From an uncultured Shinella sp. (lineage in GTDB: Bacteria > Pseudomonadota > Alphaproteobacteria > Rhizobiales > Rhizobiaceae), in NCBI GenBank assembly GCA_946481465.1, contig CAMLOC010000180.1, positions 1-7,092 of the forward strand: a stretch of 7,092 nucleotides of DNA. The letters are read 5' to 3'. Made by a program: the position numbers and the translations under genes. This document shows, one piece after another, positions 1 through 6,702 of this stretch. Each line of letters begins with the position of its first letter. Position 1 is the stretch's first letter. Below the pieces are notes generated by a model. The model had not been told where the DNA came from and made no database searches. It worked only from the letters and a program-made list of their open reading frames with translations.

Positions 1-953
1 TCCTCGATGAGGTTCATCGCCTGCCAAACCTTTTCCAGAACTTACGCGGCCTAATCGATCGCGGGCGACGCAAGGGGCTGCGCACCGGACGCTTCTTGCT
101 GCTCGGATCGGCATCGATAGACCTCCTGAAACAGACAGGCGAAAGCCTTGCAGGCCGGATTGCCTATACTGAACTGGGACCTATCGACGCGCTGGAGGCA
201 TCGGCCGCAGATCTCGACAAATTATGGATCCGCGGCGGCTTCCCGGACAGCCTTCTCGCTAAGAATGATCGCACAAGCCTACGGTGGCGGGCCGACTTCA
301 TCCGCACTTATCTGGAGCGCGATATCCCAATGATGGGACCGCGCATTGCGGCAGAGACGCTACGCCGCTTCTGGACGATGCTAGCACACCATCAATCAGG
401 ACTTCTCAACGCAGCCGACTTCGCCCGATCACTTGGCGTCGACAGCAAGACGGTTGCCTCCTATCTCGACCTCTTAGTGGATCTCCTGCTCGTACGGCGC
501 CTTGAACCCTGGCATAGCAATGCCGGCAAGCGGCTCGTGAAATCGCCACGGATTTACGTTCGCGATTCCGGCCTCGTCCATACGCTCCTCGGTCTCGAAA
601 CGCTTGACGACGTGCTCGGTCACCCGGTCAGCGGCGCCAGTTGGGAAGGCTTCGCGATCGAGACGGTGCATTCCGTTCTACCGGAAGGCAGTCACGCGAA
701 TTTCTACCGAAGCTCGGCCGGCGCCGAAATCGACTTGGTCATCACCCTGCCCGGCGGGCCGAAGTGGGCCATCGAGGTGAAAAGAAGCCTGAGCCCGAAG
801 GTCGAACGCGGCTTCCATCACGCTTGCGAGGATCTTAAGCCGGAGCGGCGGATCGTCGTTTATCCGGGCGCTGATGCCTTTCCCCTTACCGGCGGGATTG
901 AGGTGCTGCCGCTGCGCCAGCTCGGCAAGGAGCTTCTGGAACGAACTCGATGA
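1..953 (+). CDS. AAA_14/DUF4143 family ATP-binding protein, 5' end missing
   Basis: The reading frame is open from base 3, so the gene starts upstream of the window; 316 residues are visible. They begin inside the Walker B region (LDEVHRLPN) and continue into a sensor-1-like strand (FLLLGSAS, about 31-38), so the P-loop lies outside. DUF4143 hallmarks follow: WIRGGFPDSLL, FIRTYLERDIP, a winged-helix-like stretch (about 136-167), KSPRIYVRDSGL and GASWEGFAIE. The end has a PD-(D/E)XK-like pattern, GAEIDLV then AIEVKRS (E242, D244, E258, K260). Members of this widespread family are usually cytoplasmic ATPases of unproven role, common in accessory DNA. The TTG at 96 is not the true start, because conserved Walker B sequence precedes it in frame. 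The family call is firm; the function is unknown. Confidence 0.88.
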   Translation, partial: LDEVHRLPNLFQNLRGLIDRGRRKGLRTGRFLLLGSASIDLLKQTGESLAGRIAYTELGPIDALEASAADLDKLWIRGGFPDSLLAKNDRTSLRWRADFIRTYLERDIPMMGPRIAAETLRRFWTMLAHHQSGLLNAADFARSLGVDSKTVASYLDLLVDLLLVRRLEPWHSNAGKRLVKSPRIYVRDSGLVHTLLGLETLDDVLGHPVSGASWEGFAIETVHSVLPEGSHANFYRSSAGAEIDLVITLPGGPKWAIEVKRSLSPKVERGFHHACEDLKPERRIVVYPGADAFPLTGGIEVLPLRQLGKELLERTR

Positions 954-1151: not shown

Positions 1152-1181
1152 CGGGAACCTTCCCAGAGGGGCGGCATCCAA
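1152..1181 (+). promoter_or_regulatory. ECF-type promoter P1 of the sigma factor gene
   Basis: A -35-like CGGGAACCT (GGAAC at 1154-1158) is followed after 15 bases by GCATCCAA (1174-1181). The same two blocks at identical spacing recur at 1883-1912. GGAAC is the classic -35 core for alphaproteobacterial ECF sigma factors. A start of transcription near 1188 would leave a leader of about 14 bases holding the AGGAG ribosome site at 1191-1195. This implies autoregulation of the sigma gene. Confidence 0.75.
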
Positions 1182-1201
1182 CGGGGCGAAAGGAGCATCT
1201 C

Positions 1202-1882
1202 ATGCCCGCTTTGCAGACCCTCCCTGCCCCCAATGACGAGGCGAACCTTGTGCGCCGCGCCGCCGCGGGCGACGCTGCCGCCGTCCGCGCGATCATCAGG
1301 ACCCACAACCAGCGCCTCTACCGCCTCGTGCGTGCCGTCATAAGCAGCAATGCCGATGCCGAAGACGTGTTGCAGGAGGCCTATCTCAGCGCCTTTGCCC
1401 GGCTCGATACCTTTCAGGGCGAGGCCTCGCTCTCGACCTGGCTGTCGCGCATCGCGCTCAATGCCGCCCTTATGCGGCTTCGCGCGCAGAAGCGTATGAA
1501 GCGGGCCGCCCCTGGACTGACCACCGCCGAGGCCCAGATCATCCCATTCCCGCTTTCCTCTCTCACCGCCGACCCGGAGCGCGCCATGGCGCAGCGACAA
1601 CTTCTTCATCTTGTCGAGGAGGCGACCGACGCGCTTCCCGAAACCTTCCGCCTCGTCTTCGTCGCCCGCGTTATCGAGGGACTGAGCGTGGAGGAGACGG
1701 CGTCCCTGCTCGACCTGCCGGCGGCGACCGTGAAGACCCGCCTGCACCGAGCGCGGAAGCTTATTCGGCGCCAGCTGGAGGCCCAGATCGGCCCCGTGCT
1801 GATCGATGCCTTCCCCTTTGCCGGCGCGCGCTGCGAGCGGCTCACTGAAGCGGTCGTCGCCAAACTTGGGCTGGAAAAGTGA
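1202..1882 (+). CDS. ECF-family RNA polymerase sigma factor with C-terminal extension
   Basis: This 226-residue protein directs RNA polymerase to a small set of promoters. Region 2 spans about 30-100 and includes the core-binding DAEDVLQEAYLSAFARLDTF and the promoter-melting STWLSRIALNAA. A linker (101-130) leads to region 4 (about 135-193) with ALPETFRLVFVARVIEGLS and the helix-turn-helix LSVEETASLLDLP/ATVKTRLHRARK. An extra 33 residues (194-226, ending GARCERLTEAVVAKLGLEK) follow and contain the only cysteine, C211. Similar tails occur in an ECF group that I recall as ECF26, an assignment made from memory. The ATG has AGGAG six bases upstream. No anti-sigma gene flanks it: upstream is the SRAP remnant and downstream the DUF4142 gene. 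The family is certain; the signal it answers to is not known. Confidence 0.95.
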   Translation: MPALQTLPAPNDEANLVRRAAAGDAAAVRAIIRTHNQRLYRLVRAVISSNADAEDVLQEAYLSAFARLDTFQGEASLSTWLSRIALNAALMRLRAQKRMKRAAPGLTTAEAQIIPFPLSSLTADPERAMAQRQLLHLVEEATDALPETFRLVFVARVIEGLSVEETASLLDLPAATVKTRLHRARKLIRRQLEAQIGPVLIDAFPFAGARCERLTEAVVAKLGLEK

Positions 1883-1912
1883 CGGGAACCTCCTTCATGG
1901 GCCGGCATCCAA
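1883..1912 (+). promoter_or_regulatory. ECF-type promoter P2 of the DUF4142-cupredoxin operon
   Basis: CGGGAACCT (GGAAC at 1885-1889), a 15-base gap and GCATCCAA (1905-1912) repeat the P1 elements exactly. P2 starts at the first base after the sigma factor's TGA. Across 38 aligned bases P1 and P2 differ mainly in the middle of the spacer, the pattern expected if both -35 and -10 are read by one sigma factor. Transcription would start near 1919, giving a leader of about 37 bases. Confidence 0.75.
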
Positions 1913-1928
1913 TAGGGCGTCAACAACA

Positions 1929-1943
1929 GGCGCCGCCGGCGCC
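1929..1943 (+). promoter_or_regulatory. GC hairpin in the leader, touching the ribosome binding site
   Basis: GGCGCC-GCC-GGCGCC can fold into a six-pair stem with a three-base loop; it also reads as a 15-base odd palindrome. It lies between the predicted P2 start and the AAGGAGA Shine-Dalgarno (1944-1950), with no gap before the latter. It could limit ribosome access or protect the 5' end of the mRNA. The palindrome is seen; any role is inferred. Confidence 0.4.
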
Positions 1944-1955
1944 AAGGAGAACCCG

Positions 1956-2477
1956 ATGAAGAAGCTTTTTGCCGCGGTAAGCACCGCCTGCCTCATGCTC
2001 ACCGCCCCACTGGCCATCGCCGCCGATGCACCGAGCGATCCGCAGATCGCTCATATCGCCTACAGCGCCGGCGTGATCGATGTGGAGGTCGCCAAGCTCG
2101 CGCTTTCGAAAACCAAGAATGCCGACGTGAAGGCCTTCGCGCAGTCGATGCAGAAGGACCACGAGGCCGTCAACGAGATGGCGCTTGCGCTCGTCAAGAA
2201 ACTCAAAGTGACGCCGGAGGACAACGCCACCAGCCAGGCTCTCGCCAAGGCGGCGGAGGAAAAGCGTGCCGAACTCGCTAAGCTCGACGGTCCGGCCTTC
2301 GACAAGGCCTATATCGACAACGAGGTTGCCTATCACAAGCAGGTCAATGGCGCGCTCGAGACCCTGCTCATCCCCTCGGCGCAGAACGCCGAGCTGAAGA
2401 GCCTCCTGGAAACCGGCCTGAAACTCTTTCAGGGTCATGAGCAGCACGCCGAACATGTCGCTGCAGGTCTGAAATGA
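1956..2477 (+). CDS. Exported DUF4142 ferritin-like protein
   Basis: A 173-residue protein with a Sec-type signal peptide: KK at 2-3, a hydrophobic core and an AIA/AA cleavage site around 22-23, so the mature protein should be periplasmic. The rest is helical and charged and fits DUF4142, a four-helix ferritin-like family. Its Glu and His residues fall where a helical bundle could place them for metal: H33, E44, H69-E70 (QSMQKDHE), E123 and H127, and H161/H164/H167 near the end. The start is the ATG with AAGGAGA five bases upstream; the open frame runs back to 1806 but would overlap the sigma gene and destroy the signal peptide. It is first in the P2 operon and overlaps the cupredoxin gene by four bases. 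DUF4142 has no firmly established reaction; metal binding is inferred. Confidence 0.9.
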   Translation: MKKLFAAVSTACLMLTAPLAIAADAPSDPQIAHIAYSAGVIDVEVAKLALSKTKNADVKAFAQSMQKDHEAVNEMALALVKKLKVTPEDNATSQALAKAAEEKRAELAKLDGPAFDKAYIDNEVAYHKQVNGALETLLIPSAQNAELKSLLETGLKLFQGHEQHAEHVAAGLK

Positions 2478-2806
2478 CGAAGGACCGGCTCAACAGGCGG
2501 CAGGTGCTGATTGCCGGCATGGCGATCTTGGCCAGCACCACGCGTGCCCGCGCGCACAACGGGACGATCCACGTGAAGATCGAAGCGCTCGTCTTCGAGC
2601 CCCCCGATATCGAGGCGAAGGTGGGCGAGACGATCGAGTGGACGAACGGCGATCCATTTGCTCACACAGCCACCGTGAAAGGAGGCTGGGAAGTGACGAT
2701 CCCGCCTGGCCAGAAGGCGACCCATCTCGTAACCGCCGACGATGATGTGGAATACTATTGCCGCTTTCACCCCAACATGAAGGGGCGGATTGTTATCCGG
2801 CATTGA
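2474..2806 (+). CDS. Tat-exported cupredoxin (amicyanin/plastocyanin-like)
   Basis: A 110-residue blue-copper-type protein. The N-terminus has a twin-arginine signal (NRRQVLIAG, residues 7-15) and a likely ARA/H cleavage at 27/28; Tat export fits a protein folded around its cofactor before transport. The mature part has the cupredoxin pattern FEPPDIEAKVGETIEWTNGD, then FAHTA, then YYCRFHPNMKG. All four type 1 copper ligands are present: H64, C96, H99 and M102, with the C-x2-H-x2-M spacing of amicyanin. If cleaved after A27 the mature chain would start with His28. Its ATG overlaps the preceding TGA (ATGA), so translation is probably coupled. A periplasmic electron-transfer or copper-handling role alongside the DUF4142 protein is likely; its partners are unknown. 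Confidence 0.92.
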   Translation: MTKDRLNRRQVLIAGMAILASTTRARAHNGTIHVKIEALVFEPPDIEAKVGETIEWTNGDPFAHTATVKGGWEVTIPPGQKATHLVTADDDVEYYCRFHPNMKGRIVIRH

Positions 2807-2891: not shown

Positions 2892-2905
2892 TGACGCTAG
2901 CGTCA
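2892..2905. repeat. 14-bp perfect palindrome at the PIN toxin stop codon
   Basis: TGACGCTAGCGTCA is its own reverse complement. Its last three bases on the plus strand are the complement of the toxin's TGA stop. As RNA it could only form a five-pair stem with a CTAG loop. It may be a protein-binding site or a small 3'-end hairpin. The palindrome is certain; its role is unknown. Confidence 0.5.
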
Positions 2906-3322
2906 TTGAGCCCAAGGATTAATCACCCTCAACCCGGCAGCCTCAAACGGGCTTATGTCGCGGGTTGCGACCACCAAGTCGTTAGCTGCTGCTGTCGCTG
3001 CTATATAGCCATCAGAAGTACCGATCGCCCTCCCCGACACTCGGGCGCGCACCATCAGTTCCGAGTAGAATTGCGAACTTGCTAGATTGAATGACAGGAT
3101 GCGCCCGGAAAAATGCGGCAGCACCTCACCCTCAAGGCGATCGCGAAGGATAGTTCGTCGCTTTCCCAGCGGCATAGCAGCAATCCCGAAGCGAAGTTCA
3201 GCAACTGTGATTGCGGAAATGAACAGTGTCTCTATGGTTTGGGCATCTAGCCAGGCGACCACTTGCTCATCGGGAGCCGGTTTCCACGGTTCGGAGATTA
3301 CGTTGGTGTCAAGCAAGATCAT
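2903..3322 (-). CDS. PIN-domain toxin, VapC/FitB-like
   Basis: A 139-residue PIN-domain protein, a full-length member of the VapC/FitB ribonuclease toxin family. The acidic metal-binding residues are all present: D5 (LLDTNVIS), E42 (VAELRFG), D104 (TSDGYIAATA) and D122 (ATRDISPF). These proteins cleave RNA with Mg2+ or Mn2+ and are held inactive by their partner antitoxin. The ATG overlaps the antitoxin stop codon by four bases (ATGA), so the two are translationally coupled with the antitoxin first. LDTNVISE and the late VATRD-x2-PF motif place it near FitB. Its RNA target cannot be told from the sequence. It faces the cupredoxin gene tail to tail. Confidence 0.93.
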   Translation of the reverse strand: MILLDTNVISEPWKPAPDEQVVAWLDAQTIETLFISAITVAELRFGIAAMPLGKRRTILRDRLEGEVLPHFSGRILSFNLASSQFYSELMVRARVSGRAIGTSDGYIAATAAANDLVVATRDISPFEAAGLRVINPWAQ

Positions 3323-3573
3323 TCGAAGGTCATCGGTTCGGCTGGGGCGTCATCGCGATCTTTCTGCAGGGCTTCGACGTCGGCATTGGAAAGCTCGGCG
3401 TCGCGGCCAATAGCCGCCAGCAACGAGCCCAGCTTCAAGCGTTCAGATGGGCGAACAGCGGCTTCGAGGATGTCACGGATCTCAGCCTCGGTGCTACGGC
3501 CGTGATGTGCCGCTCGCACGCGCAGAGCACGATGTGTTTCGTCAGAAATATTTCGAATGGTTACCGCTGGCAT
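3319..3573 (-). CDS. Ribbon-helix-helix antitoxin, FitA-like
   Basis: An 84-residue antitoxin. The N-terminal part (about 3-42) is a ribbon-helix-helix DNA-binding domain: strand VTIRNIS, helix DETHRALRVRAAHHG, turn and helix RSTEAEIRDILEAAV. The remaining part is acidic (SNADVEALQKDRDD) and should be the segment that lies across the PIN toxin's active site. The pairing with a FitB-like PIN toxin, gene order and ATGA overlap all fit a type II module. Such antitoxins repress their own operon as a complex with the toxin, and suitable palindromes lie at and upstream of the start codon. The ATG is preceded by a weak AGGCGG ribosome site. Confidence 0.9.
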   Translation of the reverse strand: MPAVTIRNISDETHRALRVRAAHHGRSTEAEIRDILEAAVRPSERLKLGSLLAAIGRDAELSNADVEALQKDRDDAPAEPMTFE

Positions 3574-3925: not shown

Positions 3926-5038
3926 ATGACGCGAATCAACAGCGAAGCCACTGAGAACCAACCTTCGGAACATTCGGCGACGCCGCACGGTACGCCGGTG
4001 GACGACGGCAAGTCGGCCGCCCTCGTTGCCGCATCCGCCCCGCCGCCCCTGCCGGCCCACCTGCAGGATCTCACGGATCGGGCGCGCGGGTATGTCGAGG
4101 CGGCGAGTTCCGCCAACACGCGGAAAGCCTATGCCTCCGACTGGAAGCATTTTTCCGCCTGGTGCCGGCGCCAGAACCTGCCAACCCTTCCGCCGGATCC
4201 CGAGGTCGTTGGCCTCTATATCACCGCCTGCGCCTCCGGCACGGCCGAACGCGGCGGCAAGCCGAACACCGTCTCCACGATCGAGCGCCGCCTAGCGGCG
4301 ATCGGCTGGAACTGCGCGCAGCGCGGCACGAAGCTTGACCGCAAGGACCGCGCCATCGCCACCGTCATGGCCGGCATCCGCAACCGGCATGCCGCCCCGC
4401 CGCGCCAGAAGGAAGCCCTGCTGCCCGAAGACCTCATCGCCATGCTGGAAACGCTCGACCGCGGCTCGCTGCGGGGCCTGCGCGACCGGGCCATGTTGCT
4501 CATCGGCTTTGCCGGGGGCCTGCGCCGCTCGGAGATCACCGGCCTCGACCTTGGCCGTGACCAGAGCGAGGATGGGCGCGGCTGGATCGAGATCTTCGAC
4601 AAGGGCGCCCTGGTGACGCTCCGCGGCAAGACCGGCTGGCGCGAGGTGGAGATCGGGCGCGGGTCGTCGGATGCCACCTGCCCCGTCACGGCGCTCGAGA
4701 CCTGGATCCGCTTTGCGAAGATCGCCCGCGGCCCGCTGTTTCGCCGCGTCACCGGTCAGGGCAAGGATGTCGGGCCGGACCGGCTCAACGACCAGGAAGT
4801 GGCGCGCCTCGTCAAGAAGGCGGCACTGGCTGCGGGCGTGCGCGGCGACCTGTCGGAAGCCGAGCGGGCGCAAAGATTCGCCGGTCACTCGCTGCGCGCC
4901 GGCCTTGCCTCCTCGGCGGAAGTCGACGAGCGCCATGTGCAGAAGCAGCTCGGCCACGCCTCGGCCGAAATGACCCGCCGCTACCAGCGGCGCCGCGATC
5001 GCTTCCGCGTCAACCTCACCAAGGCCGCGGGGCTCTGA
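3926..5038 (+). CDS. Tyrosine recombinase / site-specific integrase
   Basis: A 370-residue recombinase that cuts and rejoins DNA through a phosphotyrosine. After a Pro/Ala-rich N-terminal stretch (1-45), a SAM-like core-binding domain runs about 46-155 (SANTRKAYASDWKHFSAWC). The catalytic domain is about 165-366 and has the whole active site: R200 (GGLRRSEI), K235 (RGKTGWREVEI), H321 and R324 (HSLR), H344 (LGHAS) and nucleophile Y353 (TRRYQRR). The ATG at 3926 is preferred because upstream sequence has no family similarity, though AGAGG sits only two bases before it. The gene stands alone: no excisionase, transposase or phage gene is next to it, so its substrate is unclear. It may move an island or act as a resolvase-like element. 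High GC separates it from the AT-richer TA genes. Confidence 0.93.
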   Translation: MTRINSEATENQPSEHSATPHGTPVDDGKSAALVAASAPPPLPAHLQDLTDRARGYVEAASSANTRKAYASDWKHFSAWCRRQNLPTLPPDPEVVGLYITACASGTAERGGKPNTVSTIERRLAAIGWNCAQRGTKLDRKDRAIATVMAGIRNRHAAPPRQKEALLPEDLIAMLETLDRGSLRGLRDRAMLLIGFAGGLRRSEITGLDLGRDQSEDGRGWIEIFDKGALVTLRGKTGWREVEIGRGSSDATCPVTALETWIRFAKIARGPLFRRVTGQGKDVGPDRLNDQEVARLVKKAALAAGVRGDLSEAERAQRFAGHSLRAGLASSAEVDERHVQKQLGHASAEMTRRYQRRRDRFRVNLTKAAGL

Positions 5039-5256: not shown

Positions 5257-5613
5257 TCAGCTTGCCAGCCTGGATTCAGCGAAGTTGGCCGCCTCCTCAA
5301 GAGCCTCTTCGGCCCACTGGTTGAGGCTTTTACCGGAAAGTTCAGCGGCGATGGCGGCCTTACGGTGAACAGCAGGGTCGACACGGAACATCATCTTGCC
5401 CGAATATGGCTTCTGGGGTTCCTTGCCAACCTTGGCGCAAGTTTCGAGATAGTCGTCGACTGCCTTATGAAAGGCGTCTTTCAGACTGGCGACGGAGTCC
5501 GAATGAAAGCCGACAACATCGTTGATGCCGGCGATACGCCCGAAGAAGATTTCGTCCTCGCTGTCAAATTCAATTCGAGCGCTGTAGCCGTTGTAATTCA
5601 TAACGTTGGTCAT
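5257..5613 (-). CDS. hicB: HicB-family antitoxin
   Basis: A 118-residue antitoxin with both expected HicB parts. The N-terminal domain (about 1-60: MNYNGYSARIEFDSEDEIFFGRI, then a helix with SLKDAFHKAVDDYLETC) has the partly degraded RNase H-like fold that binds the toxin. The C-terminal ribbon-helix-helix (about 72-112: GKMMFRVDPAVHRKAAIAAE, then SGKSLNQWAEEAL) binds the operator. Its ATG overlaps the hicA stop codon by four bases, so toxin comes first and antitoxin second, the usual HicAB order. It likely represses the operon at the ATGCTAGCA sites upstream of hicA. Confidence 0.93.
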   Translation of the reverse strand: MTNVMNYNGYSARIEFDSEDEIFFGRIAGINDVVGFHSDSVASLKDAFHKAVDDYLETCAKVGKEPQKPYSGKMMFRVDPAVHRKAAIAAELSGKSLNQWAEEALEEAANFAESRLAS

Positions 5614-5985: not shown

Positions 5986-5992
5986 TGTGGCT

Positions 5993-6259
5993 GTGTCAAC
6001 GATTAGCCTCAAGGATGCCAAGGCTGGTTTTTCGCATATCGTGGATCAAGCCGCCGCTGGAGATTTCGTCACGATTACCCGGCATGGTCGCGCCGCTGCT
6101 GTCCTTGTCTCTGTACGGGCGGCAGAAGCAGCAAAGAGAGCGCTTGCCAAAGGGCGGCCTAGCCTCGTCCAGTATCTGAAGACCTTTCCCGCTGATGTGG
6201 ATTTCGACGGCGATGTTTTCGCGAGGAACCCGACTCCATCGCGTGAGGTGGATTTGTGA
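5993..6259 (+). CDS. Phd/YefM-family antitoxin
   Basis: An 88-residue antitoxin with the Phd/YefM DNA-binding fold: STISLKDAKAGFSHIVDQAAAGDFVTITRHGRAAAVLVSV (residues 2-41), then an extended toxin-binding tail ending FARNPTPSREVDL. Two GTG codons are possible, at 5987 and 5993. GGAG at 5982-5985 is one base from the first and seven from the second, so 5993 is the better start. The stop overlaps the toxin's GTG by four bases. It probably represses its own operon through the GGTCA/TGACC dyad. It is divergent from hicAB. Confidence 0.9.
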   Translation: MSTISLKDAKAGFSHIVDQAAAGDFVTITRHGRAAAVLVSVRAAEAAKRALAKGRPSLVQYLKTFPADVDFDGDVFARNPTPSREVDL

Positions 6260-6702
6260 GTGGCTTCTTGCTCGATACCAACGTCATTTCGATGTTGTCG
6301 CCGTCAAAGGCGACGGCCACGGCTGATTTTATAGCGTGGCTGGAAGAGCAAGAGCGGCTTAACGCGATCTATCTATCCGCTGTCACGATCCACGAAATTG
6401 AGAAGGGTGTGAGGCTGCTGGAAGCAAAAGGTGCGACGGCCAAGGCGGCAGGGATCGAGATATTTTTGCGGGGGCTCATTGTCGGATACGATGACCGGAT
6501 TCTTCCGGTTGACGCCGAGGTCGCACGGGAAGGCGGAAAACTGGAAGCGAAGGCGATGTCTGCCGGTTATAATCCCGGTGCGGCAGACGCCATGATCGCA
6601 GGGACCGCCAGCGCTCATGGTCTAACGGTCATCACGGCGAACCTGAAACATTTTCAGCCATTCGGAATCAACGTGACATCGCCGGATCAACTGGCGCCCT
6701 AA
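6256..6702 (+). CDS. vapC: PIN-domain toxin, VapC family
   Basis: A 148-residue PIN-domain ribonuclease toxin starting at a GTG that overlaps the antitoxin stop (GTGA). Active-site residues are present: D7 (LLDTNVIS), E47 (TIHEIEKGV) and D111 (GAADAMIAGTA), with N129 in the ITANLKHF motif where some VapC proteins have Asp. The ending HFQPFGINVTSPDQL is typical of VapC partners of Phd-type antitoxins. It is only distantly like the other PIN toxin at 2903-3322, so the two modules look like separate acquisitions, not a duplication. The RNA target is not predictable from sequence. Confidence 0.93.
   Translation: MSGFLLDTNVISMLSPSKATATADFIAWLEEQERLNAIYLSAVTIHEIEKGVRLLEAKGATAKAAGIEIFLRGLIVGYDDRILPVDAEVAREGGKLEAKAMSAGYNPGAADAMIAGTASAHGLTVITANLKHFQPFGINVTSPDQLAP

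Follow-up and report, generated by a model that had tools for sequence, protein, structure and literature searches.

The ECF29 group of sigma factors reportedly dates from an earlier (2009) classification. The closest described counterpart of the locus analysed here is the S. meliloti unit rpoE8–SMb20593–amcY, the last gene of which encodes an amicyanin and the sigma factor of which, RpoE8, has been assigned to ECF29 (Lang et al. 2018, PMC6180224). The RpoE8 consensus given there is −35 GGGAAC / −10 GCATCCAA; a start with this motif was mapped upstream of rpoE8 by 5′-RACE, and a second copy was pointed out between rpoE8 and SMb20593. The available part of the same paper reports no transcript start for SMb20593, no candidate anti-sigma factor for rpoE8, and no target induced when RpoE8 was overexpressed 126-fold.

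In the available part of a 2022 ECF review (PMC8999054), ECF29 is listed in the table of ECFs without an anti-sigma factor under the block ‘Others’. This block comprises 15 groups, equal to the number of groups with unstudied regulatory extensions given in the text, and the placement of ECF29 in the extension class rests on that table. The review also covers CorE (ECF238, former ECF44), a copper-dependent ECF that, like ECF29, has no anti-sigma factor and in which cysteines of a C-terminal extension act in sensing. ECF29 likewise has a C-terminal extension with a cysteine, although CorE-like sigmas carry a cysteine-rich domain and a CXC linker motif (PMC8999054), compared to one conserved tail cysteine in the sigma factor described below. 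A further alphaproteobacterial ECF system driving a blue copper protein is ECF26, i.e., RpoE1/RpoE4 (sulfite response, pseudoazurin); according to the part of the source available, these are paired with anti-sigma factors and have the motif GGAATA / GT rather than GGAAC / GCATCCAA (PMC3511301).

The cassette and its S. meliloti counterpart

The window, by which we mean the whole stretch analysed (7,092 nucleotides of contig CAMLOC010000180.1 from an uncultured Shinella sp.), contains a sigma factor gene followed by genes encoding a DUF4142 protein and a cupredoxin (Table 1), all three of which were found intact and with the Pfam domains expected from the initial annotation. The two bipartite promoters it had described before the sigma gene and before the DUF4142–cupredoxin pair are both present, with the same 15-base gap from GGAAC to GCATCCAA. 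A search with GGAACCT-N12..16-GCATCCAA returned exactly two matches in the window, both N13, and none in 200 dinucleotide shuffles of it. The −35 GGGAAC / −10 GCATCCAA combination typical of ECF29 lies 5′ of the sigma gene, and P2 starts 2 bases past the sigma stop codon. Given the overlap of the DUF4142 and cupredoxin reading frames at ATGA, these two genes are probably carried on one transcript.

Table 1. Features of the 7,092-nucleotide window.
Feature	Position	Strand	Remarks
DUF4143 ATPase	3-953	+	Pfam; cut by window start
P1, ECF29-type promoter, GGAACCT-N13-GCATCCAA	1154-1181	+	5′ of sigma gene
ECF29-type sigma factor, 226 aa	1202-1882	+	Pfam sigma r2/r4, NCBIfam PRK11922
P2, second promoter copy, GGAACCT-N13-GCATCCAA	1885-1912	+	5′ of DUF4142 gene
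DUF4142 protein, probably exported	1956-2477	+	Pfam; helical-bundle model
Cupredoxin, single-domain, amicyanin-like, probably exported	2474-2806	+	Pfam Cupredoxin_1 1.4e-9
FitA-like/PIN pair	2903-3573	-	Pfam
Tyrosine integrase	3926-5038	+	Pfam
HicB-like	5257-5613	-	Pfam
Phd/PIN pair	5987-6702	+	Pfam

The initial annotation could not match this cassette to a named system, which proved wrong, as the RpoE8 (ECF29) unit of S. meliloti agrees with it in gene order, motif, and spacing. At the rpoE8 place on pSymB of S. meliloti 1021, we noted relatives of the sigma factor (55% identity), the DUF4142 protein (75% over 154 residues), and the cupredoxin (48% over 79 residues), together with two sites spaced as P1 and P2 are in the window. 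The 1021 pSymB record carries no annotation; an annotated S. meliloti record names the three genes RNA polymerase sigma factor, DUF4142, and cupredoxin. The window shows the arrangement seen at rpoE8, with the sigma gene followed by DUF4142 and blue copper genes, and the two units also share a P2 right behind the sigma stop codon and an FPFAG.RC tail. Since the S. meliloti place encodes relatives of all three proteins under equally spaced sites, the window unit is, as judged from sequence, the ECF29/RpoE8 cassette already in print (PMC6180224, as far as available). Unlike the S. meliloti unit, the window cassette sits beside toxin–antitoxin and integrase genes, in a mobile, toxin–antitoxin-rich stretch. 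Among the plasmid DNA matches listed, 14 of the best 15 come from Shinella. No RNA family reached its gathering score in the window.

Neither the open reading frames nor the Pfam matches flanking the cassette in the window include an anti-sigma gene beside the sigma gene. An ECF26 (sulfite-response) identity for the sigma factor was ruled out by this and by the promoter motif.

The cupredoxin had been claimed to be a complete type 1 copper protein, and its ligands H64, C96, H99, and M102 are all present and invariant in 15/15 aligned cupredoxins (the window protein and 14 relatives). Amicyanin is its top sequence match in the PDB and shares its C-x2-H-x2-M loop; the protein scored 33 bits against the NCBIfam amicyanin equivalog, with a cut-off of 110.2.

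Regarding the DUF4142 protein, the term ‘ferritin-like’ stands as a statement on fold, given that structure comparison of its helical-bundle model showed resemblance to DUF305/CopM and wider ferritin-like bundles, but inspection of 25 aligned sequences revealed no conserved ExxH motif of the diiron ferritin-like type. Invariant in this alignment are D42, M65, D68, H69, E123, H127, H161, and H164. CopM was the sole PDB profile match, and a weak one (E 0.18), while the Pfam DUF305 score fell below gathering (25.8 bits versus 27) despite the similar fold. Identity to CopM/DUF305 is about 14%. Metal binding is a candidate property of the window protein, and the DUF305/CopM and Dps/bacterioferritin rows of the fold comparison lie only about 1–2 Z apart, a gap so small that the fold does not decide the metal.

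Conservation of the cassette and distribution of its motif

The sigma search of genomes gave 492 confirmed loci, and the best 80 of these were examined. The ECF29-type tail was present in the 16 closest, and in 15 of these 16 (among the best 80 of 492) the DUF4142 and cupredoxin genes lie on the same strand as the sigma gene, retained down to 39% sigma identity, which bears out the expectation that the three genes stay together across genomes. One of these loci (L005) has folE and a Rieske-FAD oxidoreductase gene between the sigma and DUF4142 genes; the exception, an acidobacterial MAG (L013), showed neither a DUF4142 nor a cupredoxin gene. Within the fetched flanks of the remaining 64/80 loci, neither gene was seen. 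Strict promoter sites occurred at 12/16 of the closest loci, and a weight-matrix scan, run without a shuffled control, placed P1-like and P2-like sites in 15/15 cassettes; those of two gammaproteobacterial MAGs (L014, L016) have low scores, read GCATCTAA, and exceed the others in length by one base. A plasmid labelled Roseateles sp. XES5 (L112), in a record marked unverified, carries P1 and a sigma gene whose product is 83% identical to that in the window; downstream of this gene, the annotation lists neither a DUF4142 nor a cupredoxin gene.

The gene neighbourhoods bear on a reading in which the cassette serves low-oxygen metabolism or denitrification, where NO or nitrite would be the signal and the cupredoxin would feed either a copper nitrite reductase or a cbb3 oxidase. 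A Shinella zoogloeoides plasmid has the cassette between ccoNOQP and Fnr-nirK-nnrS, and half of the annotated plasmid regions viewed (4/8; L112, L113, L114, and L115) contain genes annotated as truncated haemoglobin, both in line with this reading; the cassette neighbours nevertheless differ in S. meliloti, S. medicae, and Phyllobacterium (L358). We compared 16 marker proteins at 20 sigma loci (15 from the genome scan and 5 plasmid regions) and 64 control loci. Plasmid regions L111–L114 supplied 15 of the 16 markers and so contain them by construction; L115 had four. Among the 15 genome-scan cassette loci, with flanks of at most about 5 kb, any marker was found only at L005, compared to 1/64 controls (L065, FdxA). 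We thus rejected denitrification as the general meaning of the cassette and regard it as quite improbable as its role.

The motif also tracks the sigma factor across genomes. Across the wider family (297 genomes), the exact pattern GGAACNTTN13CATCCAA, which would miss the window's own P2, gave 64 sites in 50 genomes, compared to 2 for a reversed control pattern. An ECF29 sigma was detected in 63/297 genomes (E up to 1e-36), and a site was present in 47 of these 63 as opposed to 3 of the 234 without one (Fisher p 4e-37, with no correction for relatedness), where absence means not detected at E 1e-36 with the best 9 first-look candidates scored per genome; the other 16 sigma genomes had no site of the exact pattern. 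Motif identity, cassette conservation, and this co-occurrence support the claim of an autoregulated sigma factor with a direct target pair, which also fits the published 5′-RACE start at the S. meliloti equivalent of P1.

Directly downstream of 60 of the 64 exact-pattern sites lies a sigma gene, a DUF4142 gene, or one of a few other named genes. The 63 classified sites divide into DUF4142 (24), window-type sigma (13), second-type sigma (1), a ~140-aa protein (16), PCuAC (2), Rieske-FAD reductase (2), cytochrome c (1), and none of these (4), and the 64th, in G010, is 5′ of a sigma gene. Of the four sites with none of the named genes, three come from the three genomes in which a site but no sigma was detected. 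Because these very sites served to define the Rieske, cytochrome, and 140-aa classes, only the DUF4142 and window-type sigma classes (37/63) form an independent check. The spacing GGAAC-N16-CATCCAA also occurs upstream of FolE genes in L119 (assigned by Pfam), L127, and L253 (by eye), and of additional Rieske-FAD genes in L239, L242, and L253 (by eye). The description of the regulon as ‘self-contained’ holds for the four closest genomes searched (G001, G002, G003, and G010), where sites with the cassette spacing lie solely in the cassette, but not for the ECF29 group as a whole, in which more genes carry the motif. In G002, there is one extra site with a spacing shorter than that in the cassette.

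The ~140-aa protein, one of 16 of which was scanned and had no Pfam match, belongs to a second architecture comprising this exported protein, a longer cupredoxin, and an ECF29-type sigma. The longer cupredoxin follows the 140-aa protein in L121, L154, and L157 (Pfam Copper-bind for L154), and was not resolved by the longest-ORF view in L146 and L152. An ECF29-type sigma gene is next on the same strand in L121, L146, L152, and L157, with an FPFDG.RC tail in L146, L152, and L157 (cut off in L121), while it lies on the opposite strand in L154 and L155, indicating that the layout varies. The motif thereby brings together a blue copper protein and an ECF29 sigma in a further arrangement besides the cassette. 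Neither it, nor conservation of the tail cysteine, nor the PCuAC sites were found in the literature searched; the main 2021 ECF reclassification lay outside this search, so the tail cysteine and the second architecture may be described there.

Motif copies at a copper operon in Mesorhizobium

A looser pattern, GGAACNTN14CATCCAA, was present in 125/146 Mesorhizobium genomes (2 matches for the reversed control). In L083 and L091, a motif copy lies between a DUF2946-like gene and genes encoding PCuAC, DUF1775 (YcnI), and CopC, with Pfam assignments of PCuAC, CopC, and the DUF2946-like protein (just below cut-off) taken from L083 and that of DUF1775 from L091. PCuAC was found in 146/146 genomes and an ECF29 sigma in 117/146, with the best 20 first-look candidates scored per genome in the sigma search, so that absence again means not detected at E 1e-36.

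Using a weight matrix derived from 34 cassette sites, we scored the roughly 500 bases 5′ of PCuAC in 139 genomes, leaving seven unscored (G343, G349, G351, G357, G371, G373, and G422). The 99th percentile of base shuffles was exceeded in 91/111 genomes with the sigma versus 14/28 others (p 0.001, relatedness not corrected); with 18 bits as the threshold, the counts were 67/111 versus 9/28 (p 0.01). The −35 core of the PCuAC sites is 94% conserved, the −10 core 98%, the spacer 79%, and the flanks 55–57%, figures that are biased since the sites were chosen by the matrix. These results are suggestive of a PCuAC–YcnI–CopC operon under the ECF29 motif.

It is also quite possible, although we lean against it, that these sites serve another sigma factor whose promoter is similar and that the copper operon lies outside the ECF29 regulon. 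Among the 14 scored genomes that keep a PCuAC site without a detected sigma, six have the exact GGAAC / CATCCAA core, and sites with and without the sigma look much the same. Conversely, the site is decayed (e.g., GGAATTTTTCGCGGGCGAATTCGTTCAA) in G319, G337, G339, G390, G391, G393, G443, and G445, five of which (G337, G339, G390, G393, and G445) carry a strongly matching window-type sigma and the other three a weaker match. Both observations count against a simple reading of the PCuAC link; membership of the operon in the ECF29 regulon is favoured by the greater frequency of sites where the sigma is present and by a GGAAC / CATCCAA core identical to that of the cassette promoters.

We also noted a near-constant motif copy, GGAACCTCTCGGTCAGCCACGCATCCAA, which recurs with close forms in several Mesorhizobium genomes; the surroundings in L235 and L237 share 81% identity over 1.9 kb, and neither shows a clear downstream gene or a tRNA. 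These copies, also present without a detected sigma in G338 and G341, were left out as regulon members.

The sigma factor tail and a model of control

The window sigma scored 294 bits against NCBIfam PRK11922 (cut-off 204) and, as in other ECF29 members, extends past region 4 (about residues 196–226), where it contains the sequence FPFAGARC. The corresponding motif, [FY]-x-F-x-G-x-R-C, was found past region 4 in 120/120 of the nearest sigma homologues listed and in 73/75 ECF29-like sigma stretches from the loci, the exceptions (L142, L177) being out of frame, compared to 0/59 more distant ECF stretches. The protein contains a single cysteine in 102/120 of the nearest homologues listed and in 50/73 of the tail-bearing locus stretches. 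In the AlphaFold model, the tail is uncertain (pLDDT <50 for residues 202–214), too much so to tell where the cysteine docks.

Given the lack of an adjacent anti-sigma gene, sigma activity is probably gated by its own C-terminal F-x-F-x-G-x-R-C tail. We consider it likely that the sigma drives itself and the DUF4142–cupredoxin pair, is gated by this tail, and has a periplasmic copper or redox output. RNA polymerase with the ECF29 sigma would start at P1, its own gene, giving positive feedback, and the same holoenzyme would start at P2, coupling DUF4142 and cupredoxin production to it. The tail would restrain the sigma, with its cysteine as a candidate metal or redox switch, and a copper or redox cue acting on this residue would release it; in the periplasm, the products would bind copper and transfer electrons. 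This model builds on the observed genes, dual motif, linkage, conservation, and co-occurrence with the sigma. We infer that P1 and P2 are used in the window organism, that the two target proteins are exported, that the tail gates the sigma, and that the signal is copper or redox. As the output combines a CopM/DUF305-like helical bundle with a blue copper electron carrier, a likely role is periplasmic copper handling or electron transfer, and a copper/redox meaning of the cassette is plausible.

The published overexpression of RpoE8, in which no target was induced at 126-fold (PMC6180224, available part), counts against the model, as do the missing transcript start for SMb20593 and the low confidence of the tail in the AlphaFold model. 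The null result is evidence against control by dose alone and would suit a sigma factor in need of activation, and tail gating could explain it; it may also mean that P2 is unused in S. meliloti. It argues for an extra activating step and hence against the alternative that the ECF29 sigma is controlled by its own transcription via another regulator, with the tail only structural. This alternative draws on described cases of transcriptionally controlled ECFs (PMC8999054, available part) and on a tabulated PhaR/AniA binding site 5′ of rpoE8 that is rated ‘Efficient’ and listed for rpoE8 and acyP (S. meliloti pSymB 1605799-1605819; PMC12542648, available part). Given that the tail motif is also kept in all in-frame ECF29 sigmas examined, we find it unlikely. 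The PhaR site suggests additional transcriptional control of rpoE8 and hints at a link between the polyhydroxybutyrate state and the sigma factor.

More tentatively, and with rather more doubt than confidence, we propose that ECF29 is an anti-sigma-free, cysteine-gated copper sigma, in which one tail cysteine would sense copper or thiol redox state and turn on a modular periplasmic regulon of blue copper proteins in two operon architectures, the CopM-like bundle, a Rieske-FAD reductase, GTP cyclohydrolase, and, in Mesorhizobium, PCuAC–YcnI–CopC. While the cassette itself is known, the wider regulon is a testable extension, and the tail cysteine together with the wider motif-defined gene set offers a testable proposal for both the signal (copper or redox) and the output.

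Some ECF29 sigma genes look broken, with an internal stop or loss of frame (G077:C5, G442:C11, L142, and L177), and, going by these, the system may be decaying in places.
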